NCBI GenBank assembly: GCA_033439255.1
Contig: CM065879.1
Location: 1,716,501-1,780,500 of the forward strand
Length of the DNA stretch: 64,000 nt
Direction of reading: 5' to 3'
Source: Hericium rajendrae
Lineage: Eukaryota > Basidiomycota > Agaricomycetes > Russulales > Hericiaceae
Position numbers and translations under genes: made by a program. This document shows positions 12,979-52,843 of this stretch, piece by piece. Numbering within the stretch: position 1 is the first letter of the stretch; every line of letters begins with the position of its first letter. The notes under the pieces are model-generated. The model did not search any database, was not told the DNA's origin, and saw nothing but the letters and a program-made list of their open reading frames with translations.

Positions 12979-15395
12979 TCAAAGCGGATACTTCATGAAC
13001 AATTCAGTCAGATAATCCAGCTGTTCTTCCCGATACATGTCTTTCGTGACGTTCAAAGACGGGCCGTCCCATAGAGTGAGGAGATGCGGGGAATCTGGGG
13101 TATATTTGGGCCAAGGCATGCTAGCTCCGCCGTTCGGATCGAGATGTGCGACGAAGCGGATGAGGTAGTCGGTCATGTCGCCCGGTCCCAAACAGGAAGC
13201 CATCTCAGAGCCATGGAACTAAGACGATGTGATTCAGTTTTGAGATGATACATGTCACCAGATACAAGACCTACCGAGCCAAGGACGGGCAAGGACTTGC
13301 CCCGTTTGCTCACTGTCAGTCATACTCTATCAATAACTATCATTCATGAGGATCGCTTCACTTACAAACCGACCAGGTGTCCTGCTTTTCGGACTGCTGT
13401 TGCAAGAAGAACCGCCTCGGGGCCTGGAACACCACATCTCCTTGGAAAGCTGCGAGACGTTTAAATTCGGGTGTGACTGCGTTCGCATCGCCTGTGTCGA
13501 ATGGTGAACCGTCTGCGGCGTCGTCTCCGTACAAGGTCAGGACCCGATCGAGTTCGGTCTGAGTTGCATTCGGTAGATAAATTTCCTTTATATAAGCGTG
13601 CGTCTCATGGCTCGTCCTGTGTAACACGAGCTGAACGCACCGTTTATGATAAAGATAAGACGGTGCTTACGTGATGTTAAGATTGAAGATCGCGAACAGA
13701 GTACCCTCATCGTCAGCATCACCTGAAACCAATGTCAATGATCTGCCGCCTCTGCAAGTCTACTCAAGGACAAACCGCTGATCATCGGCAATTGGGCCAC
13801 GCTGCCTTGCTCAACCAGCCGCTGAGGGTGGTCCTTGAGGAACACACCGTCGACGCGAGGCATCCATGCCAAATTCAACGACTAGTGATAGCGTCAGTGT
13901 TCGAACGAACCTAGAAGAACTGTAAGATCCACATTACCTTGTACGATGTGATCGCTGGCGTCTGATCCACGGCAGCCTTGAGTTGACCATACGGGGCCCG
14001 CCTCAAACACTCGAGGGTATCAGAAGCGTCTGAGCATCCGGTCTGCTCAACGAGCGTGTTGTAGTACTGCTGCCCATGCGAGATGTCGCCAACAGGAATG
14101 GGGGACCCTGCATCCATGATGCCTGCCCGGAATAGCCCTTCCACGTCGCCACCGTTGGTGACCATCTGCAGCGCTACGGAGATGGCGCCTGAGCTGATCC
14201 CGTAGCTGCGGGGACGTCAGAATGAAATCATGGGTGGTTTAAGATGGTGCGTACATTGTGACTTTCTCGGGATCGCCTCCAAAGGCCGTGATGTACTTCT
14301 GGACCCAACGGAATGCCTCGCGCTCTAATATACAAACGATTAGAAACAGGACATCTCTATGGCCGAGAGACGTACGGTCGTATAAGCCTAGATTGCCGAC
14401 ACCAGCAGCTTTCACTTCTTCGCTGGCCAGAAAGCCGAAAGCTATACGATGTCAGCAATGCACAAGCCCCAGAAGCCATCAAAATCCCCTACCGTTGACA
14501 CTAGGATGGGCATATTCGTTAAAATGACCACTTTGACAGCACGCAAAAAGATACTTACCGATAACTCAGGCTGACATACACGATGGGCTCTTCCATTTCA
14601 ATAGATCTCTCGACAATCGGGCGCCCATCAAATCTATTGCAATGATTTGTTCAGCAAGGATGTAAGGCGGAAAGTATATACACAAACTTACGAGGATGGC
14701 CCACCTACTTCGAAACCACCTGGCAGGATATGTATCATTAGTCCCAGCAATTCGAGCCCCACAATGAACTGCGACATACCTCCAAAGATATACTGAGTAA
14801 TTATGAAAAATGAACCCATGAGCATGGAGTTCAGAGCTGGTACGCCTACTCACGAGAAGAACTGGCAGCTGCGCGTCTGCCCTAGCGTTAACCGGCTTGA
14901 TAACGTTGATAGTGAGACCTTGGAGGATTTAAGTGTCTTTGTCATAGCTTAACGGCCATGACATACTCACAGTCTTCGCTCTCAGGAGTAGTATTACCGG
15001 AGAATATCGCTTCAATATATTGTACAGTCTCGGGAGGCAGCTCTGGCGATAACACCAACGGAGTAGCTTGCTGAGGACAGCTTGGGCCGAACGAAGTAGC
15101 ATTCTGCACTCCTGTATAAGGATCGCTCGACTTCGGCAAACGGAATCGAAGATCGCCGACACTAATGGGAGTTTATCAACATACGTGCAAGCAGGAAATT
15201 CGCAACCAGGACGTACGGTGGCTGGGCGAACGGGATCCCGAGGAATTGGGAGATGTTACCAGAAACTTGACCAACGAAGGTGCCATTGTCGAGCTGGACG
15301 GTAGGCCCGGCATCGCGCGTGTCTGCCACGGCAATGATATGAGCTGGCCTGAGAGCCAGAAGCCCAAGAATGGTGCCAGTGTGCCAAAGTAACAT
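12979..15395 (-). CDS. Type-B carboxylesterase/lipase, copy 1
   Basis: Many short exons read right to left. The signal peptide MLLWHTGTILGLLALRPAH is followed by DAGPTVQLDNGTFVG and QFLGIPFAQPP, the typical start of fungal type-B esterases. A micro-exon gives YIFGG, and the next short exon GFEVGGPSS belongs to the oxyanion-hole region. The nucleophile elbow reads YGISSGAISV, a GxSxG in which the usual Glu is Ile. The catalytic His is in FHGSEM near the end. Two exons spell AGIMDAGSPIPVGD and QAPRRFFLQQQ, and the protein ends TELFMKYPL. Substrates are esters or lipids outside the cell; specificity is unknown. It sits tail-to-tail with the amidase pair and has a paralogue split by transposons at 38.1-53.5 kb. 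Confidence 0.88.
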
Positions 15396-16017
15396 GAGAA
15401 GGCTGTCTGTTAGGTGGGGCAAATCCTGAGGAATGCATGCCGGAGTGCATTCTGTTACAAACGAACGACATCTCGGTGATCACGGAGAGCACACGCATGG
15501 ATGGTTCGTCACTGCGACGCATACTCGTCGCGTATCAAGTTGGTGAGTATAGTATGCGACGCGTAGAAGCGGCAACTAGTAGCGTCTCAAAGCGCCCTGA
15601 AGTATAACAGTGCGCCGGGCAGTGCGGTCCATCATCCACTGAGATGTGCCCTGACAATCGACACAGAGACGGCATATGCCAATACTCTTTACAGAGCTTG
15701 CTTACCGCCGACTAGCGCCTACCTCGTGGACAACAAATCGGTGTTTGACAGGCCCATCGCCGAGGTATCATGAACTTACTATCTATCCGTCGGTCCGACG
15801 GCTCTGCTTGCCGTAGAGGCGTGAATATCGATCATGAGGTCTGAACGTTGAACAAGCAATGCGTCTCTGCACCGGCTAAGAGCTGTCGAAAGCTTTCAAA
15901 TCAAGTTGCTTCGCCATGCGACCTAGAACCCGATGAAATGCTGAACCCCATTGGGAGACAAGCCAGTCGAGGTAGAGAGAATCTTCACTTAAACTTCCTT
16001 AGCCTAATCTGAACGAC
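15396..16017. other. Intergenic left of the amidase stump
   Basis: No amidase exons from the missing 5' part could be found here. A short string, aaacttcctt, just before the stump also occurs upstream of amidase 2, which may be chance. Confidence 0.4.
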
Positions 16018-38071: not shown

Positions 38072-40791
38072 TCAAAGCGGATGCTTCATGAATAGCTGAG
38101 TCAAATAATCCAACTGCTCTTCACGGAACGTGTCCTTCGTAACGTTCGAAGCTGAGCCATCCCATAAAGTCAGGAGACCTGCAGAAGCGGGCGTGTATTT
38201 CGGCCAAGGCACGCTAGTTCCGCCGTTGGGATCGAGATGTGCGACGAAGCGAATGAGGTAGTCGGTCATGTCGCCAGGTCCCCAAAAAGAAGGCGTCTCG
38301 CTGCCGTGGCACTGATGATGAAGCGAGTCAATTAAGGAGTAATATAAGTCTATCAAAAAGGAACAGCCTACTGAGCCAAGAACAGGCAGGGACTTGCTGC
38401 GTTTGCTCACTGTCGACCACTCTGCATCAGCAACAGTCCCTTACGAGGAACTCTTCGCTTACAATATGACCAGGTGTCCTGCTTCCCGGATTGTTGTTGC
38501 AAAAAGAACCGTCTAGGAGCTTGGAAAAACAGGTCTCCTTGGAAAGCTGCAAGACGTTTGAACTCTGGTGTGACTGCGTTCGCATCGCCTGTATCTAAAG
38601 GTGATCCATCTGCGACGTCATCTGGATACAAGGTCAGGACCCGGTCAAGTTCAGCTGGAGTTGCATTTGGTAAATAAATTTCCTTGATATAATCGTGCGT
38701 TTGATTGTTCGTCCTGTGGAACATGAGCTGAACGCGCTGCTTGTCAGGGAAAAGCTGGTGCTTACGTGGTGTTGAGGTTGAAGACCGTAAACAAGGTGCC
38801 CTCATCGTCGGTATCTCCTGGAATTAGTGTCAGTGATTTGTCTCTCTCGCTCACTGAAAACTTGCTCAAAAACAAGGACGAACCGTTGATCATCGGTAAT
38901 TGGGCCACGCTGCCTTGCTCCACCAGTCGCTGAGGGTGATCTTTGAGAAACTCACCGTCGACGCGAGGCATCCATGCCAAGTTCAACGACTATGAATCGT
39001 GTGAGTGCTCGACAGACCTGTAAGGTGTGAAAAGTATGCAGTACCTTGTACGATGTGAAAGCTGGTGTGTGGTCCACAGCAGCCTTGAGTTGATCGTACG
39101 GGGTCTGCCTCAAACATTCGAGCGTATCAGAAGCGCAGGAGCATCCAGTTTGCTCAACGAGCGTGTCGTAGTACTGCTGCCCATGCGAGATGTCGCCGAC
39201 GGGAGTGGGTGATCCTGACTCCATAACGCCTGCTCGGAACAGCCCTTGCACGTCGCCGCCATTGGTAAGCATCTGCAGTGCTACGGAGACGGAACCAGCG
39301 CTGATTCCATAGCTGTGATGGCATTAGGAAGGAATCCAATTACGTTTGATTGGGCGTACATCGTCACTTTCTTGGGATCGCCTCCGAACGCCGTGATGTA
39401 CTTCTGAACCCAGCGGAGTGCCTCGCGCTCTACACATGCAAACGATTAGAGACAGTCACGTTTCTATGGCTGGAACACGTACGGTCGTACAAGCCTAGGT
39501 TGCCGACGCCGGCAGCCTTCACCTCTTCGCTGGCCAGAAAGCCAAAAGCTGTACTAGATCAGCAGCGCGCAAGCCACAGAAGCCATCAAGATCTCGTACC
39601 GTTGACACTACGATGGGCAGAATTTTTTCAAAAGACTGTTTCCGGAGCACGCGAAAAGGATACTTACCGATAATTCAGGCTGACATATATGATAGGCTCT
39701 CCAATTGCAATAGATCTCTCGACAATTGGGCGGGCATCCGAACTATTGCAATGACTTGTTCAGTAAGAAGGCCAAGTGGAAACAATATACTCAAGCTTGA
39801 GGCAGTTCAGTTAGACAGAATTAATCTGCGGCTGTAGTAAGGCCTGACAGAATTAATCTGTCACCTTTAGGATTAGCCACATTACGGTTCAAACCGTAAC
39901 ACGATCTCCCACAGTAGTACAGATCAACTCGTAATGAAAGGTCCTGAGCCGCGTAGTCTAGCAAAACAATGTAGAGACCGAGAATTGAACCTAGGACAAT
40001 TCACCGGTTCATCATGAACGTAGACACAACTAACCACTGAGCCAACATGCTGTTGAAGTAAACATAAATCTACATCTAATGAGCCATTATTTCGCGAAAA
40101 TTTCGACTTAGCAACATTTCCGTAGGTCATAACCTGGACGGATACACTCGTAATTACAGCTTTATCCGTAAATATCAAGTGAGTGAATTATATGTGATGA
40201 ACAATAAAGGCATAAATTACAGATACATCTGTCAAGACAGGTATATCTGTAAGAACAGATGTATCTGTCAGTATTAGCTTTGAAAGTTGTGTCCATAGGT
40301 TTTCTTCATTATTATTGTTTGTTGGTTATAATTCACTAACTTGATATTTACAGATGAAGCTGTAATTACGAGTGTATCCGTCCAGGTTATGACCTACGGA
40401 AATGTTGCTAAGTCGAAATTTTCGCGAAATAATGGCTCATTAGATATAGATTTATGTTTACTTCAACAGCACGTTGGCTCAGTGGTTAGTTGTGTCTACG
40501 TTCATGATGAACTGGTGAATTGTCCTAGGTTCGATTCTCGGTCTCTACATTGTTTTGCTAGACTACGCGGCTCAGGACCTTTCATTACGAGTTGATCTGT
40601 ACTACTGTGGGAGATCGTGATACGGTTTGAACCGTAATGTGGCTAATCCTAAAGGTGACAGATTAATTCTGTCAGGCCTTACTACAGCTGCAGATTAATT
40701 CTGTCTGGCCTTACTACAGCCGCAGATTAATTCTGTCTAACTGAATATCTACCAAGCTTACCCAGATGGCCCTCCTATTTCGAAGCCACCT
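38072..40791 (-). CDS. Type-B carboxylesterase copy 2, 3' portion (gene split by insertions)
   Basis: Paralogue of the esterase at 12979-15395, exon by exon. The last exons give CHGSETPSFWGPGDMTDYLI with the catalytic His, and LTQLFMKHPL. Next come QAPRRFFLQQQSGKQDTW, AGVMESGSPTPVGD, the nucleophile elbow YGISAGSVSVALQML, and a micro-exon GFEIGGPSG at about 40763-40791. The intron downstream of that micro-exon holds the 0.94 kb inverted-repeat element, and the upstream intron holds the 12 kb transposon. The remaining exons, with signal peptide, lie at 52844-53462. The coding sequence itself looks undamaged, but splicing across a 12 kb intron is doubtful in such a compact genome. Confidence 0.8.
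39806..40745. mobile_element. Near-palindromic element with tRNA-like arms inside an esterase intron
   Basis: Long inverted repeat: left arm about 39806-40190, right arm about 40327-40745, spacer about 137 bp. The outer ends are TTCAGTTAGACAGAATTAAT and its complement. The right arm has one extra unit of the motif gcagattaattctgtctggc. Each arm holds a tRNA-like block with box A (tggctcagtggttag) and box B (ggttcgattc) at about 40471-40548 (+) and 39970-40048 (-). Flanks show an imperfect duplication, aatatactcaagctt (39784) and aatatctaccaagctt (40744). It could be two head-to-head SINEs or a foldback DNA element. It lies in an intron and encodes nothing. Confidence 0.75.
40471..40548 (+). 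other. tRNA-like (SINE-type) sequence in right arm
   Basis: Has box A tggctcagtggttag and box B ggttcgattc about 50 bp apart, as in tRNA genes. The acceptor stem does not pair and the T stem has a mismatch, so it is not a functional tRNA but a tRNA-derived polymerase III promoter. The mirror copy lies at 39970-40048 on the minus strand. Confidence 0.6.
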
Positions 40792-40799
40792 GAAAGCAT

Positions 40800-40808
40800 A
40801 TATAACAT
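40800..40808. repeat. 9 bp target-site duplication, left copy
   Basis: ATATAACAT directly before the left terminus; the identical 9-mer follows the right terminus at 52795-52803. Confidence 0.9.
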
Positions 40809-41081
40809 CAGGCTCCGTCCCATCCGCCGCCTCAGGGTAAGGGAATTGCTAGTGACCCGAAGGAATAGGAGAAACACGACTTGTGTATTGGTGTGCGAAC
40901 ATGTACCTAAATTAGGATCGAAATTAAAACTCAATGAAACTCCACTCACTCAGCAACAACTCCGAAACCCAAACTGCCCTTACCCTTCAGTGACGGCTGG
41001 CACAAAACATTTACAAACATTCAGCCACCCTCAGCCACCGCGGTCCACAGACGGGTCGGGGAAGGGTCGGGCTGATGTAAT
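40809..41081 (+). repeat. Left terminal inverted repeat (273 bp)
   Basis: Reverse complement of 52522-52794 apart from about two substitutions. It includes small internal repeats (cagccaccctcagccaccg). Open reading through both TIRs is a by-product, not a gene. Confidence 0.95.
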
Positions 41082-41145
41082 CATCCATAGAATTCTCAAT
41101 ATTGATGTGCGGATGCTCTCCGAGTGAGACAACGGAGGAGTGGAA

Positions 41146-42059
41146 ATGTCGTCCACACCATCCCTCCTAAGTGTAGTGGAGCAGCTCCAAGCACTGCAGG
41201 TAAACATGGCTGACTTGTTCTTATTTTTATTTCAGTCAACAGCATGTGAAACGCAACTTGCGCGTGGACAGATAGGCGAGAAGCTCGAGGAAATATTCGC
41301 CGAGCTTTCAGAGCACCCACAGACAACCAAAACATTCTTGCGATGCATACAGCTCAATGTCAGACAGAGCCTTAGCTCATCCATCAAGCAATTAACAGAC
41401 AAGGAGAACGGATGGCATTTTAGTGCACTTCATGCAATTCCTGAGCAACTCACCAACTTTCAGCTCAAAGAGATGTCTGCGAAGATGCAACAGATTGCCC
41501 CAGAATTGTGCGACATGGTCGCGTTCATGCTCGGAAGCACCAGACCAATTGGTGAGTCATAGAGCCTTCTGAATTTGCCTACGCACTTATTTTTACATTG
41601 CGAAATACAGAGGATATCGAGCTTGACGAAGATGAGGCAGAGTACTGGGCATCACAAGAAAACTTCGATGTATTCTCGGGCAAGAACACAGCGAGCAAGT
41701 CACGTCAACATCTAGCACGCACGCGGACCAACGAGAGGCGCATAGCGTGGCGACAGGAACAGATTAATATGGTATGTTTAAAGTCATACGATAACGTACC
41801 CAAAAATTCATGCCCTGTAGAAAACGACTGCAGTGATTAGCATCATAATGCAATCCAACAATCAACAATGCAACGCGTTGCAAAGCATCGTTGGAATATT
41901 CTTACACTCGTGCGACACACCCGAGAAAGTGATCAAGACGCTCGCGCGCATGGGCACATCGATCTCTGTCAATGCAATTCACAATGCTGTCCGATCCCTT
42001 TCAGCGGAGACATCTCGTGCGCTGCAGGAGCTCGGACGCAGCTTGCTGGCAGCTTACGC
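41146..42059 (+). CDS. DUF6589-family protein, 5' part (candidate transposase)
   Basis: From the ATG at 41146 (MSSTPSLLSVVEQLQALQ), with a likely 42 nt intron (gtaaac...tttcag) and others near 41552-41610 and 41772-41819. The segment includes HPQTTKTFLRCIQLNVRQSL, DEAEYWASQENFDVF and NNQQCNALQSIVGIFLHSCD, then ISVNAIHNAVRSLSAETSRA. This is the N-terminal part typical of agaricomycete DUF6589 proteins, which carry a helical region before the core. The frame is interrupted at 42059 by an LTR element and resumes at 47267. Placed between TIRs, it is the best candidate for the transposase; that role is inference. Confidence 0.75.
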
Positions 42060-42882
42060 TGATGTGTGGACCCTGGGAATGGAGGCGGCAGCCAAAACCA
42101 AAACCAACAGAGTACCGGGGGGGGTGCGAGGGGACCAAGTATCTCAAGTGAGGAGTGAGGTGAGGGTAGCTGAGGGTCACTGCAGCAGGAACGATGGAAC
42201 GACTGGTTCGCTAAGGGCGAGTCTGAGGCGATCTGGTGATAAGCGGCTGGGAAGGATGAGGAACGGCTGTAGAATGACAAGGAGAACGACGAGACACACG
42301 GGTCTCCGATATGACGGACTAATCCTAGAGAAAAGGACTGAAAAGCGGCTGATATGACTGAATCTGATGAACGACGCTGCGGGCGGACTGGCCTAAAGAG
42401 GGCGAACTTGTCTAAAGTCCGGGGAACGATGAGAACAACAGTGAGAGAGACTTCTGAGGTCTGAGCTCTGAGGGGGAAAGGTGCACTGGGGGGTTCTATT
42501 CGAAGCTGGGACTCTGTCTACCATGCAAGTAAGAAACTCGCCCTTGGCGGTCTCGGGCGATCTCGGACTCGGCTGCTCTATGGTACATCTATGGTCCGAA
42601 ACCATCAAAAGGTGGCATCCAGGCATCCTGTACAACACAGACCCGGTACCATAATGCCAGCAACCTGATTGGCTCACCAAAACCGCTGAGGACGACCTGG
42701 AGCGAACTTGAGGAAACCTCGGTGAGGCCTGCAGTAGCTGACAACTCCTGAGATGAGGGACATCACTGCTCTGAGCGGGGTTGGTGGGTGAGGAGCTGGA
42801 AGCTGGATGGGAGTGAAGGGGAACTGCATGGGAGATGGTGAGATGAGGTCTGACGTTGCTGAACACAGCTTGAGGCGTATCA
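42060..42882 (-). repeat. LTR (3' LTR in element orientation)
   Basis: Nearly identical direct repeat of 46446-47266; ends TG...CA, preceded inside by a purine-rich tract. Confidence 0.9.
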
Positions 42883-43020
42883 TTCTCCCCCCAACTGAAA
42901 AATAGACTGCCCTCAGTCTAACCAATGAGCCCCATGAGGGATTCGGATGCTAGACACCAAATACGCTTCGAGCAGTGTTCTCACTATAGCTGAGAAGGAG
43001 AGTGGAGGTGGTGACAACGA

Positions 43021-45081
43021 TCAAGCGGGAATGCATCGCGATAGAGGAGGACGATCTGGGATCACTGCTGGTGGGTTCTGATGGAAAGCGAGATGGTCAA
43101 GGAAAATGATATCACTGTCGTCGACTAAAGGTGCCCTGAGCGAACTTGACGTGGATCTGAAAAGCGACTGGAGAAATGACACTGAAAGCGGTGGAGTGAT
43201 GGAAAACGGAGGTCGACAGTCGGCAGGTATAGGCTTGGACATTACAGGCGAGCTTGGAGTGGGTTCAGAGCCACCAACAAGGACTCCTGGGTGGAGATCA
43301 GGTTCTGAGACACCCTGGTGATCCCCCTGCAGGTCTGCGCATTGAGAAAGAAACTCTGCATCGGTAGAGACGGTAGAAGGAAGGGTAGATGAGCTGCTCG
43401 AGACTTGGTGCTTCTCTAAGTCCAATAGAAACAAGTTCGCTGGTGGTTCGCTTTGGGCGACGTTGAGCGCAGAGCGAACTTGAGTCTCTAACTGCTCGCA
43501 TTGGTCTCTGGATGACAGGAGAGGCCTCCTAGATGATGACACATGACGATCGACGAAGGATGGCCTCGACATATGGGCTGGCATCACTGCTGGCTCATGG
43601 AGCTGAGCAAGTTCGCCTCGAGCGTGGTAGGTGGTGAAGTCGAGTTGCATCTGATAGAGCTGAGCAAGCTGATGTCTGCCAGACTGGATCGGTGTCGAAA
43701 TGGAGAGGCCATGCCTTAGAAGATAGACTCGATCATCAAAGGACACTTGATCTGTGGTCGAAGGAAGGTCGCTGTGGGCGGACTTGTGCGGAGCAGGCAT
43801 TCGGTGGACAAAGGGAGCAGTTTGAGCGATGGTGCTGGGTGAAGACTGGTCTGGGGCATGCCAGGATGGGGTGCGCTGATAGAACTGGTCGAGACGAACT
43901 GCAATGGGATCACCTGAGACACCTCGAGGTAGCCAGGCCCCAGAAGGTAAAGTGATCTCGCCTCTGGTGTTGAACTTGCACTTGCCAGCCTTCAGGTACG
44001 TCTGAACTGCTGCGCACTGACGAAGGAAGTGACCATGGGCCCCACAGAAGCTGCAATGCCCAGGGGCAGTCCGAATACGCCGAGGCTGTCTGAAGGTCGT
44101 CGAAGGCGTACAGGAGGTTGCTGGCTGGACAGGAGGTGAAAATGTCGGTGGCTGGACCGTTCTAAGCAGGAGATTCGCTAATGAGGGTACATGCTCGCTT
44201 TTGATAGTGATTGTGGTGGCAGAACCCAAGACCACTGGTGGCGAACTCGCCAAAACGTTGGCAACTGGGTCATTACAGCTTGTATGAGGGTCAAGTGTGA
44301 TGCTGGTACCATGCAGAATGCGCTTAGCAGCATGATAGATGTCAATAATGGGGTAGGACTCGTCTGGATGGTGGTCTGGGTGCCTCTGGGTGAGATAGGC
44401 CTCAATCTGGTGGCAGAGTCGATCTGGAAGCGCTGAGAGGAAGAAATGCTGCTCCTCGAAAGCAGAGAGACGTCCCTGGTGCTTCAGGCAACGTGAAATG
44501 ACCAAAAACCGACGAAGAAATGCACCAAGTTCGCCTAAGGAGGACAAGTTCGCCTGAAGCGTCCTTCGAGCGAGAGCCACCAAATCCTGCCTGGACCAAA
44601 GGCCTCCTGCTTCGGAACCTGGATACAGCTTCTGGATCGCAGCCTTGAACTCGTTCCAAGTGCCTGTGCCAAAACTCGGTTCAGACTGCCAGAGATCCTG
44701 GGCATCTAACTCCGACAAAAGCCGGACTGCATGAGCCTTCTTCTCCAGATCGTCCTGGACCTGAAAGTGCTGAAAACAAAACTCCAGATCTGCAAAATAT
44801 GGTCCAAGTTCACGGGGATCGTCTCTGGCAAAACTGGGAGCACCGCTCTCTCCACGCATTGGCATGAATGCTGATGGCGTCATTGTAACAGAAGCAGCAG
44901 GACAGGGGTAATGTCGAGGATGAAAGTGAGCAGTAGTGATCGGGGGCACGCTAGAGCAATCAGGAACGATGGAGGTGACTCTGATGCGAGGAAAGTGAGC
45001 CTGAGATGGACTAGGGGTGATCAGGGGCGATGAGGAGCGACTTTGAGGCGATCTTGCTATGACTAGGGCAATGCGAGACAA
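43021..45081 (-). CDS. Gag-like frame of the nested LTR element
   Basis: Open frame of 686 codons. An early core resembles retrotransposon gag (LEFCFQHFQVQDDLEKKAH, AIQKLYPGSEAGG, LSALPDRLCHQIEAYLTQRH), followed by a single CCHC knuckle (CSFCGAHGHFLRQC) and a long Ser/Pro-rich tail. Part of a fossil retroelement; no separate host function is suggested. Confidence 0.8.
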   Translation of the reverse strand: MSRIALVIARSPQSRSSSPLITPSPSQAHFPRIRVTSIVPDCSSVPPITTAHFHPRHYPCPAASVTMTPSAFMPMRGESGAPSFARDDPRELGPYFADLEFCFQHFQVQDDLEKKAHAVRLLSELDAQDLWQSEPSFGTGTWNEFKAAIQKLYPGSEAGGLWSRQDLVALARRTLQANLSSLGELGAFLRRFLVISRCLKHQGRLSAFEEQHFFLSALPDRLCHQIEAYLTQRHPDHHPDESYPIIDIYHAAKRILHGTSITLDPHTSCNDPVANVLASSPPVVLGSATTITIKSEHVPSLANLLLRTVQPPTFSPPVQPATSCTPSTTFRQPRRIRTAPGHCSFCGAHGHFLRQCAAVQTYLKAGKCKFNTRGEITLPSGAWLPRGVSGDPIAVRLDQFYQRTPSWHAPDQSSPSTIAQTAPFVHRMPAPHKSAHSDLPSTTDQVSFDDRVYLLRHGLSISTPIQSGRHQLAQLYQMQLDFTTYHARGELAQLHEPAVMPAHMSRPSFVDRHVSSSRRPLLSSRDQCEQLETQVRSALNVAQSEPPANLFLLDLEKHQVSSSSSTLPSTVSTDAEFLSQCADLQGDHQGVSEPDLHPGVLVGGSEPTPSSPVMSKPIPADCRPPFSITPPLSVSFLQSLFRSTSSSLRAPLVDDSDIIFLDHLAFHQNPPAVIPDRPPLSRCIPA

Positions 45082-46445
45082 TTGGAAGGGACGAGTGAAG
45101 AGCCAAGGTGGTGGACGATGACCTGAGATGATAACCGATGATCTGGAATGCTGAAAAGCGATGAAAGGTGCTCAAAAGCGATGACAAATGCTCAAAAGCA
45201 ATAGAAGGCGATTCTGGGGCAACCAGAATGACGAGCGATAGGGAGAGATGATCCAAAGGGGCCAGGGGTGCTCCTGGGGTGATACGACCTGGAAAAGCAA
45301 TGAGAAACTGCTAAAAGCAACCAATGTCGCCGACAGCAGGTCAAGATCGCCAGCGGAAATCTAAAACAAAAGAAAGCAAGTAGGGGCCAAAAAAATGACC
45401 TGAGAGCGACTCGAGAGGCTCCTGAACGTCGATGGTGACTTTGGGATGGACTGTAAGCGGTCTGGACACAACTGGCTCAACCTGAAAGAAACAAGACTCC
45501 TCTGCAACCAATGGAGAGTGCTAGGGATGCTGGGGCGACCTTCCCTAAGACAAAATGCGATAAGTCGATGGGAGACGGCTCCTGAATGAAAGACAGTGAT
45601 AGGAGTGATCAATAGGAACCCTGGGGCAAAGAAAAGTGACTCAAAGCACTGGAAGGTGATAGGAGGAGGAGCTGATGCAAGCTATGGGGTACAGAGGCAC
45701 CTCCAAGGCGAGTCTGAGCAACAGAAGGGAGCTGGGATGACTCAATGGTGTGAAGAGGTCGCCGAAGGGGATATAAGGGCAATCCTGGATGACCTAAGAT
45801 GCTGAAAGCTGGCTGCGACCTAGTACGCTATCGGCGACTCTGTGGCAACAGTGCTAGGAGATGCTCCTGGGTGCTAAAAAGGCAAAAGAGAGTGATTGAA
45901 GACCAACCAATGCCGTCAAAATGCGATCTGGAGTGACCAAACGGAGTGAGAAGCGATGCTAGGCAGTAGAAGATGCTGGGGACTGAGTCCGCCTAAGGCA
46001 ACCTTGAGGCGAGCTGAGACGATCTGAGGTGATCAAGGGACGATCAAAGACGATTGGAGTGACCTAAAGACAACGAAGAAAGGCAGGAGGTGACAGGAGG
46101 TGATAGGAGATGACCCAGAACGATCTGAGCCAGTACAGGGCACTGGAGAGAGATGGAGGATGGTCCTGGGCGACAAAAAGCGACTCTGGAAGGGACAGGA
46201 TGGTGGAAAGCGACAGGAGGCAATCAGGTGCGACGAATGGTGATGAGAACCGATTGGAAAGCTCTGCAACCAATGGCGATCTTGAAGAATGCACCAAGGC
46301 CGCCTAAGGCGATAGCGAGCGAGAATGTGATGGAGAGCAAAAATGCGATGTCCTGACCTCGATGGCAGTCTTGACCCGATAGAGGCTACGCCTGGGTACA
46401 CCCCTCACTGTTTTGAGTATGGAACCCTCGCGGTGGGCTCCAAAA
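45082..46445. other. Non-coding leader of the nested LTR element
   Basis: 1.36 kb without a convincing frame. Composed of degenerate short units rich in gatctgaggcgatc-, gatgctggg- and gcgac-like words with strong purine bias on the plus strand, suggesting expansion of small repeats. Confidence 0.6.
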
Positions 46446-47266
46446 TGATGTGTGGACCCTGGGAATGGAGGCGGCAGCCAAAACCAAAACCAACAGAGTA
46501 CCGGGGGGTGCGAGGGGACCAAGTATCTCAAGTGAGGAGTGAGGTGAGGGCAGCTGAGGGTCACTGCAGCAGGAACGATGGAACGACTGGTTCGCTAAGG
46601 GCGAGTCTGAGGCGATCTGGTGATAAGCGGCTGGGAAGGATGAGGAACGGCTGTAGAATGACAAGGAGAATGACGAGACACACGGGTCTCCGATATGACG
46701 GACTAATCCTAGAGAAAAGGACTGAAAAGCGGCTGATATGACTGAATCTGACGAACGACGCTGCGGGCAGACTGGCCTAAAGAGGGCGAACTTGTCTAAA
46801 GTCCGGGGAACGATGAGAACAACAGTGAGAGAGACTTCTGAGGTCTGAGCTCTGAGGGGGAAAGGTGCACTGGGGGGTTCTATTCGAAGCTGGGACTCTG
46901 TCTACCATGCAAGTAAGAAACTTGCCCTTGGCGGTCTCAGGTGATCTCGGACTCGGCTGCTCTATGGTACATCTATGGTCCGAAACCATCAAAAGGCGGC
47001 ATCCAGGCATCCTGTACAACACAGACCCGGTACCATAATGCCAGCAACCTGATTGGCTCACCAAAACCGCTGAGGACGACCTGGAGCGAACTTGAGGAAA
47101 CCTCGGTGAGGCCTGCAGTAGCTGACAACTCCTGAGATGAGGGACATCACTGCTCTGAGCGGGGTTGGTGGGTGAGGAGCTGGAAGCTGGATGGGAGTGA
47201 AGGGGAACTGCATGGGAGATGGTGAGATGAGGTCTGACGTTGCTGAACACAGCTTGAGGCGTATCA
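46446..47266 (-). repeat. LTR (5' LTR in element orientation)
   Basis: Nearly identical to 42060-42882; its inner edge is followed by the primer-binding-like site. Confidence 0.9.
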
Positions 47267-49104
47267 ACGCATACGACAATTTTGACGTGCAAATGAACGT
47301 GTCGATGCCAACAATGGATGCGGGTGGAAGCAACCTGATTCACTTGACGTCCGGGGATCTGCTACGGTTGGACCACGGCATTACTCTTGAAGATTTGCAT
47401 TGCTCTGCAGAGCTATGGGAAAGCTCACCTTTGAATGACCTCACTACAAAATCCTCTTACCCTGACTTCGTAAATCTTCAGTCCACCAGCCATCTTCGTA
47501 AACTACACCCTGAAACACCCGATGAACGGGGACACACGCGGTGCGACCGTTTCAATGCATGGCAGTTCCTGTACGACCTATGCCATCATGGTCCAGAATA
47601 CTTCCATCAGTTTCAAGGCTCTATTGGTGAGCCCGAGTCCGTGGAGCAAATACCAGTGACCAAGCTGTATCATGTACCTGCCCGGGCAATGGATATCAAT
47701 CAGTCAAAAGTCTCTGGAAATCTCGAGGCAATACAAAACCTTCTGCAACAAGGCGGAGTTGGCGATCCTAATGACGACGAGGACGCACTGTACGAGAACA
47801 ACGTTGTCGACATATCAGAATATGTGGTGCTCGTTCACGGTGATCTCAGCACTTACGAACGAGTACAGTCCGTTATGGATCGCCGCTCTGACGAGGAGAC
47901 ACCGTGGCGATGGTTTCAATACGTCGTCTTTGTGCTTGGGCTATTTCACTTGAAGATGGCTGCCGCCGATGCCGTGTGGCGCATCTTCATATCCAAAGCC
48001 CTTGCACGAGAGGACGTGAACTGCCTCATGGCATTCGTCGGCGTATTACGAGCTGGCGAAACGGGAAAGATCGGGTCAAAACCAAAGTTTCGACAGATGC
48101 ATGAGGTCATCCGCCATACGGGAACCGTCCTGCGACTCGATGCGTGGCGCGTGGCAGTCCGACGACACAACAGAAATATCACCAGCCTTGAGCTTTTTGC
48201 CAAAACAAAACCATCCCTAGAGGACTTGCAGGATCTCGTGCTGGAACTCAATGACAATTTCGTCGTGGGAAAGATGGATTTGTTCGAAGCTAGGCTGAAC
48301 TCGAACTCCGAGCAGGACAAGCAGCTAGAAAATAATGCACTCCTTCATCAATATTGTCTTCTATATGAAGAACTGACTTACGCGATGAACGTGGGGGATA
48401 TTGGCCGTGTCGAGACGGTGTTCCTCCCTTGGATTTACCTCTTTAAGGCAAGCGGGAAGCACAAATACGCGGCGCAAATGACGCGCTTCTTAACCGATGT
48501 GCATTTTCGCTATCCTGAGGGCCTTCGGTGAGAACAATACCATAACGAGCACATAGCCATACTCACACACGACATCAGGAAGGCAGTGCGATACAACATG
48601 CTTGTAAATCCCACTGGAAAACCGCACCAGTTCCGAGGTGTCGATTGGGTTGTCGAACTGAATAATCTGTTCACAAAGGTTAGTAGCGTCAGTCTCGCTC
48701 CCATCTCTGCCGCTTATCATGAGCCCCAGGACAAGCATAGTGGTACCGGGCCCAACCATACTAAAGACAAAATCATCTCGGAATCCCCCCTGATATTGGT
48801 CTATCGGAACTGCCATGCCAATATCGAGAAGAACTTCAAACTGAGCGGACTATCCGGTGCTCATGCTGACAAAGACATGCGCCGGACATTCAGCAAGCTG
48901 AGTAAATATATGAAGGAAAACGGAACCAATGAATATGTTGCCGGCCGCAAAACAACATACGAAATCCTAGACATGATTGACAGAGGTCTAGAGCCAGAGA
49001 ACAAAAACATTTATATGGGCGAAGACGGTGCAGAGAATGACGAAGTTGACGAAGGACTTGGTCCCATTACCGCTGACGACCTCAGCGTGGATGCGCTGCT
49101 GTAA
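47267..49104 (+). CDS. DUF6589-family protein, core and C-terminus (candidate transposase)
   Basis: The frame resumes right after the LTR element with YDNFDVQMNVSMPTMD and continues as one long exon to about 48528. Core landmarks are HLTSGDLLRLDH, VVLVHGDLSTYERVQSVMDR, WRWFQYVVFVLGLFHLKMAA and FVGVLRAGETGKI. After an intron with donor at CGgtgaga comes NMLVNPTGKPHQFRGVDW, GPNHTKDKIISESPLILVY and HADKDMRRTFSKLSKYMKEN, the most conserved DUF6589 block. It ends ITADDLSVDALL. Conserved acidic positions (YDNFD, HGDLST) and the FHLKM motif suggest an RNase-H-like fold of a DDE/D enzyme; that is inference. A second intron near 48680-48742 is not resolved. Confidence 0.8.
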
Positions 49105-49188
49105 TACGCAATCGCGTAAGTTGTTGGTTCTAGAGACCGAGTCGTACTTACTGCTTACCTAGAATTGTGGACCATGGTTGTTACCGCC

Positions 49189-49918
49189 TCAGTTGCCGTA
49201 AAATTTCTTCGGCGGTATTGATTGGGGAATATAAGCTGGTGGCAGTGACGGTAGGTTTACTGAACGCATGTACTCGTAGTAAGCATGCACATGCACCGGT
49301 AATGGAGCAGCCGATTGCGATGACGGGGTGCCAGGCGACGAGGGCTCAGGCGATGTAATAGGTGCGTGATGATTTGTTTGTGGATCCGGCTGGGGATGAG
49401 GGGGCGGCAGGTCAGGTCCACCACTTGATTCTACCGCCGTCGTTGCTGCATGAATAACTATGTCACCGGGGAGTTCCTGCATGGCAGAAGTGGATTGTTG
49501 AGGAGCCGTACGAAGAGGATGGTATTCGAGATGGTCAGCGTCTGGATCGGTGGACGCCGCTCGTCATAGGACCGGACGAGGGCGAGGGCGAGGGCGGGAA
49601 CGAGGCAGCGGTGGCAGCGGTACCAGCGGCGGATGGCGTACATCGCCTGGATCAACGGATGGTGCTGCAGCATGCTCTTCGAGATCATCAATTGGTTCTA
49701 GATCAGCGGACATCGCCCGTCTTGGAACTGGACGAGGGCGGGGACGCGGCGGCGGTGACGGCGGCGGCGACGGATGACCTTCGTCACCTGAATCAATGGA
49801 TGGCACTCTCGAGTGGCCTTCGAGATTGGCCCCAGACGTAGGTGGAGTGGGGAGTGGGCGTTGAGCACGAGGACGAGGCGGTGAACCAGACGCGGCACCA
49901 TCGTCATTGGGTATGTTC
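49189..49918 (-). other. Proline/arginine-rich coding-like tail after the RecQ gene
   Basis: On the minus strand this region reads PSIDSGDEGHPSPPPSPPPR, then SVDPGDVRHPPLVPLPP and a third, shifted unit, followed by an exon-like MQELPGDIVIHAATTAVESS that ends PKKFYGN at 49189. The three units are a degenerate minisatellite of about 130 bp. It may be the disordered C-terminus of the RecQ protein in a spliced frame, or a separate small gene. The last zinc-knuckle exon of RecQ could not be joined to it with certainty. Confidence 0.4.
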
Positions 49919-52367
49919 TCATTGAACGAGCTTGCCGCACGCCGCGGATGTAGCGGACACAGCAGATTTCGGGCTGACCATTGCTGTTAGCCCTCGATCG
50001 CCTACAAGAAAGGACGAATGAAGAGCTAGCTCACCAGTATGACCAACTTGCTTGCACCTCCCGCATTTCCGCGTCACAATCGGACGTATTCGTACCTCGT
50101 TCGCCTCATTGGAGATCGCCTGTCTCGGGGCAAGTGGAGGGCGGATGAGTGGTGCAGATGTCATTAGTTGAGGCGCGGGGAAAACCTTGGCAACGATGTC
50201 GACGACAGCAGCTTGGTCTTCGTCGGTGGCTCTCCATTGTGTCTCCTTGCACAGCTGATCCGGCGACAGGATCTTCTGCACACGGGCACAGTCGACGATG
50301 CGCTTGAGCACCGCGTTCGACATAAATGCACTCGGCCCTAAGTCTTGCAGCTGAGCTTGACCGAGTTCGTCGACCGTCCGTCGCTTGTGGAACGCATGGA
50401 GGTCGAGGCTCAAAGTCTTCTCCCTCTCCATCATCTTGTACGTCGCGTCCACCTTCCACGACCGGCAGGGCTGTTTCGGCTTGGGCAGCGCTGTAGTCGG
50501 AGTATGTGCGAAGTTGACAAAAGCGTCGGGGTTGCAGAGCTCACAGCAAACTTTAGGAGGGGTGATGTGGCACCGTGGGCAGCCCGTCGGTAAGTCGCTT
50601 CGACATCGAAGATGATTGGACTCTAATTATGTAACAGTCAGCCTTATTACCGCCGTCACGCCCCAGCAACTTCATCCGTGCTCACCTGCCTCGTCCTTCA
50701 TGAAGAACGCTGTAATCGGTACGCAGAAGCAGCGATGGGAACGCGATCTTGCATTGACGAGGTTGTCCATCTCTGGGGTGAGTTCCTGTGGTTTCTTCGG
50801 GTTTGCGCGCATTGACACATCTCGCTCTATGGCTTGCCGCGATTCTTTGAACGTGTCGCGCAGTCTCCTCACCTGCAGCTGATGAATCTCTTGCCGACTT
50901 TGGACATTGTCGAGTCTAGGTATGTCAGCCCCTTCCATTTCGACATCCATCCCCTCCTCACCCTCCGAATCCGAGCTATCCGGGCCATCGCCTGCATCAC
51001 TCTCTGGCGCTGGGATTTCTGCCCTGGACGAACCTGCACCCGCCTGTCCTGTGGCCTGCCTCTTAGCCGCTCTCTGTCCACTGGCCTCCGTTGCTGCCTT
51101 GCGCTTCGCCTGGCGCCCCGCCTCCCTTTTCTCAGACGCTGCCACCTTCTTGGCTCGTTCATCGTCGAACCATCGTGGTTCCGCAAACAGGACCGCTTTC
51201 GCTGTTCGCGATGGGTCCCGTGCGGCGCGACCGAAACGCTGCCATAGCGTTCGCATGTCACAGCTGGCGCGCCATTGAACCACGAGGTCAATGTCGGGCA
51301 CGTCGACGCCCTAATTATAATATCGGGTCAGTTTGAGTCATGCGCTTATCGTTTGAAGACTCACCATCCCAAATGAATCGGTGCAGTAGAGTCCCCAAAC
51401 CCCTCCTTGCTTGTACTTTCCCTGCGCCTTGTCACGAAACTGAGAGGACATCTCAGAATTGAACCACCGTATGTGGCATCGTAGGTGTGGTGGCAACCGC
51501 TTTCGCAAAGCCTTAGAGGCAGCCACCGACTCAGCTATGCTGTCGAAGAAGACCAGGAATTTCGGGATCTTGTCGCCAGGCTTCCACGCTTCCGGGATGA
51601 GGAAGTCCAGATCGGCATAGCTGCGCATGCTATGTTCCATCTTGCGGACAGTGAGGTCAATATTTGGCCGATCATTCGAGCGCCAGAACTGGAGAAGGCA
51701 ATCCCGCCGTATCTGTAACGTATCCATCACTTCCTTAAGTGAGCTGTCGTCTAGTGTTGCTGATGTCACATAGAATGGGATATCTCGAGGCAATATATAC
51801 CACAATCGTGCCGCGTCCTTGTACGCTGGGCGAAAGCTACCCCAGCTTGACTCGCCGATACAGTGACCTTCGTCCCAGATAACGCTAATTATCTGAGATG
51901 CGAACACGTCATTGGCAAGGAGTTTCATGAAGCCTCCATCCTTCTTTAGCAGTTCTTCGGGGCTAGTAATGACAGCGCGATGCTTCCCATATTCAATTGC
52001 CTGGGTGCTATGATATCAGCTTATGTTGTGTGCATGATCAATGACTGACCCTGAAGTTTTCGTGGGTAGAATTGTCTGCGCTGATGGCAATCCCTTCGAT
52101 ACCGGCCTTTGCGAGCTGCGCCTGCTGTTGCTTTCCCAGTATATTGAGAGGCGTGACTACGATCTGGATGCCTTTCCGGAATAGTAGAGGCATCCAAAAT
52201 GTGAGTGTCTTTCCGGACCCTGTACCAGCCACGGAGATCACATCCTTCCCGCGGCACATGAGAGCTTGGGTGATTTCGGCTTGCCATAGGCATGGATTAA
52301 TACCGAAGACTTCGTGGGTCTTCTGTCGAATCTCAGATACTGATGGAAGCACCGGAGTTGATGCCAT
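49919..52367 (-). CDS. RecQ-like DNA helicase with cysteine-rich end, transposon-borne
   Basis: Starts MASTPVLPSVSEIRQKTHEV. Motifs in order: FGINPCLWQAEITQAL (motif 0), VAGTGSGKTLTFW (Walker A), IVVTPLNILGKQQQ (Ia), VITSPEELLKKDGG, VIWDEGHCIGES then WGSFRPAY (motif II and the RecQ aromatic loop), YVTSATLDD (III), FLVFFDSIAES (IV), YCTDSFGMGVDVPDIDLV (V, across an intron) and WQRFGRAARDP (VI). A Lys/Arg/Ala-rich linker follows, then a Cys cluster (CPRCHITPPKVCCELC) and the knuckle-like CGRCKQVGH. Variants DEGH for DEAH and GRAARD for GRAGRD mark a diverged RecQ branch. It converges with DUF6589 inside the same TIRs, so probably serves transposition. Confidence 0.85.
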
Positions 52368-52521
52368 AGTGAAAGAAGTTGAGAAGCGGTGGGTGGTTGG
52401 TAATGAGCCGAGGTGTAACCATCAGTCCGCTCACACTGTCAGGTCGCGTCGCGCTAGTAAACCATCAGTATAGTCAACGGACGCGTCGACGCGACTGATC
52501 ACGGGCACGTGACTGGTGGAC

Positions 52522-52794
52522 ATTACATCAGCCCGACCCTTCCCCGACCCGTCTGTGGACCGCGGTGGCTGAGGGTGGCTGAATGTTTGTAAATGTTTTG
52601 TGCCAGCCGTCGCTGAAGGGTAAGGGCAGTTTGGGTTTCGGAGTTGTTGCTGAGTGAGTGGAGTTTCATTGAGTTTTAATTTCGATCCTAATTTAGGTAC
52701 ATGTTCGCACACCAATACACAAGTCGTGTTTCTCCTATTCCTCCGGGTCACTAGCAATTCCCTTACCCTGAGGCGGCGGATGGGACGGAGCCTG
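52522..52794 (-). repeat. Right terminal inverted repeat (273 bp)
   Basis: Mirror of 40809-41081. It also covers the likely promoter region of the RecQ gene, which starts 155 bp inside. Confidence 0.95.
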
Positions 52795-52803
52795 ATATAA
52801 CAT
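52795..52803. repeat. 9 bp target-site duplication, right copy
   Basis: ATATAACAT directly after the right terminus CCTG, identical to 40800-40808. Confidence 0.9.
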
Positions 52804-52843
52804 TAGCTTAGAGAACTCGAGTCGTGTTATCAGCCGCGATGTA

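Follow-up and report, generated by a model that had tools for sequence, protein, structure and literature searches.

Background

Elements of the hAT superfamily duplicate 8 bp of their target on insertion, and those of the MULE/Mutator group have long terminal inverted repeats (TIRs) and target site duplications (TSDs) of about 9 bp. The AcademH lineage of the Academ superfamily reportedly goes back to Kojima in 2020 (Mob DNA 11:15). In the literature, Academ is counted among the DDD/E superfamilies (PMC9587614), and AcademH is described as having a TSD of 9 or 10 bp (PMC10045372) and encoding a DEAD/Helicase_C helicase, and as a low-copy element of Basidiomycota, Ascomycota and Mucoromycota (PMC10799480). 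KolobokH, in which a Kolobok transposon carries a RecQ helicase, is described there only from fungi, and the Kolobok TSD is specifically TTAA, ie 4 bp (PMC9587614). Here we describe an element in a 64,000-nt stretch (the window, to which positions refer unless a contig is given) of contig C2 of the Hericium rajendrae genome, which comprises 46.8 Mb in 19 contigs. It is a class II transposon in which long TIRs enclose the gene for DUF6589, a predicted DDE transposase, and a RecQ-like SF2 helicase gene belonging to the element, and it most likely belongs to AcademH, a lineage to which it was matched by description. DUF6589 is a label of unknown function carried by many mushroom proteins, and RecQ-like genes are numerous in the same fungi.

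Structure of the element and its target site

The element occupies 40809..52794 (11,986 bp, no strand assigned), its limits being set by the TIRs and the TSD, and its ends read 5'-CAGGCTCC. The TIRs are each 273 bp long, at 40809..41081 on the plus strand and 52522..52794 on the minus strand, and one terminus matches its partner at 99%; the slightly longer inverted arms, 40794-41081 and 52522-52809, are 98% complementary. The TSD, ATATAACAT, lies at 40800..40808 and 52795..52803, and no direct repeat longer than these 9 bp adjoins the two ends of the element. Within each TIR is a box, GRCGGCTGGNNNAAAACATNNNNAAACA, at 40992..41019 (plus strand, C2:1757492-1757519) and 52584..52611 (minus strand, C2:1769084-1769111), which is a candidate transposase-binding site. 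When the flanks were joined in a script, they aligned across the junction to a paralogous locus at 14675..15483 (75.5% over 813 bp), where the target is present as a single copy. The insertion is therefore real, and the TIRs, perfect duplication and empty site near 14.7 kb that had been described from the letters of the window in an earlier note are borne out. A second insertion is seen in the same intron as the element, at 39806-40745. It is a palindrome of about 940 bp with arms about 91% alike and 39 bp identical at its ends, and it is unaligned in the 14.7-kb paralogue.

Genes of the element

Domain scans identified the two convergent genes that had been proposed, DUF6589 and a RecQ-like helicase. 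The DUF6589 gene is on the plus strand at 41147..49104, and is interrupted by a retroelement with long terminal repeats (LTRs). Its exons, read by eye with putative boundaries placed by GT-AG sites and by comparison with homologues, are 41147-41551, 41611-41771 and 41821-42059 before the insertion, and 47267-48527, 48579-48678 and 48730-49104 after it. Two pieces of the gene match PF20231 (DUF6589) in Pfam with E-values of 3.6e-75 and 4.8e-16; an NCBIfam scan of one DUF6589 exon gave no match. Pfam showed no other transposase family in the nine open reading frames (ORFs) of the element scanned out of 31 listed, which agrees with the previously reported lack of a hAT, MULE, KDZ, CMC, Tc1 or PIF transposase. 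The helicase gene, at 49564..52367 on the minus strand, is an open frame of 858 amino acids with five inferred exons (52367-52050, 52000-51365, 51310-50686, 50622-50035 and 49973-49564). Its product contains the Pfam domains DEAD and Helicase_C. The top NCBIfam models were those of RecQ, with scores far under their cut-offs, and the two matches among solved structures, both of low score, were to RecQ or DNA-helicase proteins.

The LTR retroelement is 5.2 kb long (42060..47266, minus strand), with LTRs at 42060-42882 and 46446-47266 that are 98.8% identical; without it the host element would measure about 6.8 kb. One large ORF in it, 43021-45171 on the minus strand, has no Pfam match and is presumed to be gag-like only from a zinc knuckle motif. 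Nothing else of that size was conspicuous among the listed ORFs, so the LTR element may itself be non-autonomous. Its position within the DUF6589 gene leaves the window copy unable to produce an intact DUF6589 protein, and this copy is not autonomous now.

Pairing of DUF6589 and helicase genes

Searches of the genome gave 68 DUF6589 matches, which resolve to 34 loci, and 29 helicase matches, which resolve to 28; these counts are lower bounds, and the helicase search favours element helicases because the query was this element's own exon. A DUF6589 locus was found within 5 kb of 20 of the 28 helicase loci, where at most 0.23 were expected, and within 25 kb of 23. A second helicase query supplied neighbours for three more DUF6589 loci, after which eight of the 34 were still without a helicase of their own. 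In 21 pairs, the distances among DUF6589 pieces followed those among helicase pieces closely (Mantel r = 0.935, a value reached by none of 10,000 permutations), and the nearest neighbour was the same for both genes in 15. The two genes are thus co-inherited. In other fungi, at least 17 contigs, matched by species and exact length, appear in both homologue listings. They include a contig of only 5.9 kb from Leucogyrophana and, at the other extreme, scaffolds of megabase size, which are weaker evidence for pairing. That comparison drew on the 74 NCBI-named of 120 DUF6589 matches listed (524 found) and on 119 distinct contigs from 120 helicase matches listed (401 found). In Bondarzewia the two genes are numbered g2697 and g2695, and the homologues among the matches listed were from basidiomycetes. 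Proximity, correlated divergence and shared contigs together support the suggestion that the DUF6589 protein and the RecQ-like helicase belong as partners to a single mobile element. In the Hericium rajendrae genome, the majority of DUF6589 loci and of RecQ-like loci are parts of one type of transposon.

Some loci are solitary. Two near-identical DUF6589 loci, at C14:402207 and C14:1381522 (99.6% over 3.7 kb), have no helicase found nearby. Unpaired RecQ-like helicases lie at C1:5260571, C1:642210 and C11:57900; two of these three come within 60 kb of the end of a contig and may represent telomere-linked helicases.

Further copies and their termini

A search of the genome with the 273-bp terminus gave four additional ends, corresponding to two elements, and one fragment. 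Of the two, a 23.6-kb copy carries both genes, and a copy of 1,278 bp lacks both and has the perfect 9-bp duplication ATCGATATG on either side. A pattern made from the terminus led to a third, of 771 bp, with the duplication GCTGAAGTA; with up to three mismatches allowed, this pattern gave 62 matches and its reversed control 32, so most of the matches with three mismatches are due to chance. A pattern of the TIR box built from the window, both short copies and the C8 fragment was searched with up to two mismatches, and GRCGGCTGGNNNAAAACATNNNNAAACA gave 12 matches in the genome and none for the reversed control. Ten form inverted pairs at five elements, namely the window element, C2_4690, C2_4075 and the short copies on C1 and C4, and two are at the solitary ends C1:529292 and C8:1868940. 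The box is present by construction in the copies from which the pattern was built, and what is informative is that it also occurs at C2_4075 and C2_4690 and is missing elsewhere. The subfamily numbers seven loci; of the five elements with both ends, three hold a DUF6589 and helicase pair and the remaining two are short copies lacking both genes, in which ARAGORN found no tRNA. The termini are not single-copy, and short copies without the genes, such as had been anticipated, do exist. A known transposase between the same TIRs was not seen in the five two-ended elements; the interiors of the 23.6-kb copy and a 19.5-kb copy and the surroundings of the two solitary ends were unscanned.

Across lineages, both ends could be placed for 11 elements, comprising nine of the 21 DUF6589/helicase pairs examined together with the two short copies. 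Direct repeats of exactly 9 bp flank eight of them (ATATAACAT, GGTCGAGGT, ACCTTGAAG, CTTATGCGC, AGTCTTTCG, AGTCATAGG, ATCGATATG and GCTGAAGTA) and three have none. The termini begin with CAGG, CAGA, TAGA, TAGG or TAGT, the exceptions being two elements lacking a TSD, each of which has a single altered end. The earlier note had asked whether copies share CAGG termini and duplications of 8-9 bp; the 9-bp duplication holds in those eight, but CAGG marks one subfamily, other lineages having CAGA, TAGA, TAGG or TAGT. In 18 pair regions scanned for TIRs together with TSDs, the 9-bp duplications of C11_591 and C8_743 were found again and no new pair of ends emerged, C9_179 giving only a 30-bp inverted match. 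The element at C11:1226626-1234295 has a perfect 9-bp TSD and a divergent gene order.

The divergent order, in place of the convergent one, was noted in four pairs (C11:1228433, C10:1798352, C16:258785 and C16:264755). At C9:1261844-1268314 (L042/L015), the lack of a TSD beside 333-bp TIRs that are 100% identical suggests that copies have recombined or that a flank has been lost. At C16:254462-269719, a DUF6589/helicase element is duplicated in inverted orientation over 15 kb; the duplication is 99.7% alike and its inner ends are apparently truncated near 262090, and it is either real or an effect of assembly.

The TSDs bear directly on KolobokH, which shares with the window element a RecQ-type helicase in a fungal DNA transposon. 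None of the eight TSDs contains TTAA, and all are 9 bp rather than the 4 bp given for Kolobok in the source cited above; moreover, the helicase here is a separate gene on the opposite strand. We set KolobokH aside on its TSD and regard this assignment as extremely unlikely.

DUF6589 as the predicted transposase

The predicted models of two DUF6589 relatives resemble the Hermes and P-element transposases, and the best-scoring solved folds were those of hAT and the P element. Conserved D280, D466 and E722 (P0007 numbering) are at the expected places in the model. The D of GDxGR was considered as the third catalytic acid and was dropped, as longer proteins show a conserved E in the C-terminal exon, which the model puts in a fitting helix; the first model (P0016) was made without that exon. 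When A1 was compared as a sequence profile with solved structures, the two matches obtained were both at chance level (E 1.4 and 8.1). Taken with the pairing, correlated divergence and shared contigs, the modelled fold and the conserved D, D and E of the relatives make it most likely that DUF6589 is a DDE transposase, as had been proposed, and that the helicase is its partner.

Alternatively, both genes could be cargo or mere neighbours, the element being moved by an unseen transposase encoded elsewhere. The interrupted DUF6589 gene of the window and the existence of gene-less short copies would be in keeping with this, but the predicted transposase fold with its conserved acidic residues, the tight co-inheritance of the pair and the recurrence of the same 9-bp TSD in divergent lineages all argue against it, and we consider it very unlikely.

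For DUF6589 as the transposase, the protein would bind the TIRs, perhaps at the internal box GRCGGCTGGNNNAAAACATNNNNAAACA, excise the element and join it to the target with a 9-bp stagger, and the helicase may open the ends or help to process or repair strands. The anatomy of the element favours its mobilization by DUF6589 through target cuts staggered by 9 bp, presumably with help from the helicase. The likely contribution of this work is a function for DUF6589 and a partial account of the RecQ-like expansion. An unexplained gene expansion becomes a problem of repeat annotation, DUF6589 gains a catalytic triad that can be tested, and a system is provided for asking what a helicase does in transposition.

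Comparison with known systems

MULE/Mutator elements share the long TIRs and a TSD length of about 9 bp, and were set aside because Pfam found no MULE transposase domain in the nine element ORFs and three DUF6589 relatives. hAT was set aside on both TSD and domain, the TSDs here being exactly 9 bp as against 8 bp, and the same proteins showing no hAT or P domain in Pfam.

The earlier note had put the element forward as a new superfamily. DUF6589 would then found a DDE superfamily of its own, closest to hAT and the P element in fold, which independently gained a RecQ-like helicase and kept it through deep divergence in Agaricomycetes, with gene orders both convergent and divergent, termini that are mostly YAG and a 9-bp TSD, the resemblance to AcademH being one of convergence. 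The best-scoring solved folds would suit this proposal, as would the match to AcademH being one of description rather than of sequence. The term DUF6589 occurred in no paper of a full-text literature search, the scope of which left out most subscription papers and the AcademH source paper. However, the listed solved structures include no Academ protein, so the fold list cannot separate AcademH from a new superfamily. The claim of a new superfamily is probably wrong, since a 9-10-bp TSD and a DEAD/Helicase_C helicase in Basidiomycota are already described for AcademH in PMC10045372 and PMC10799480, and we consider a separate superfamily unlikely.

The element agrees with AcademH, as far as those descriptions go, in each of the features compared. 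The TSD of 9 bp in eight of 11 elements is within the described 9 or 10 bp. The window helicase has the DEAD and Helicase_C domains, and helicases also adjoin DUF6589 loci. The predicted DDE fold, with D280, D466 and E722, is consistent with the DDD/E type to which Academ is assigned, and the ends here are terminal inverted repeats. The host is a member of the Basidiomycota, the group covered by our comparison, and the seven loci of the subfamily are in keeping with the low copy number described for AcademH.
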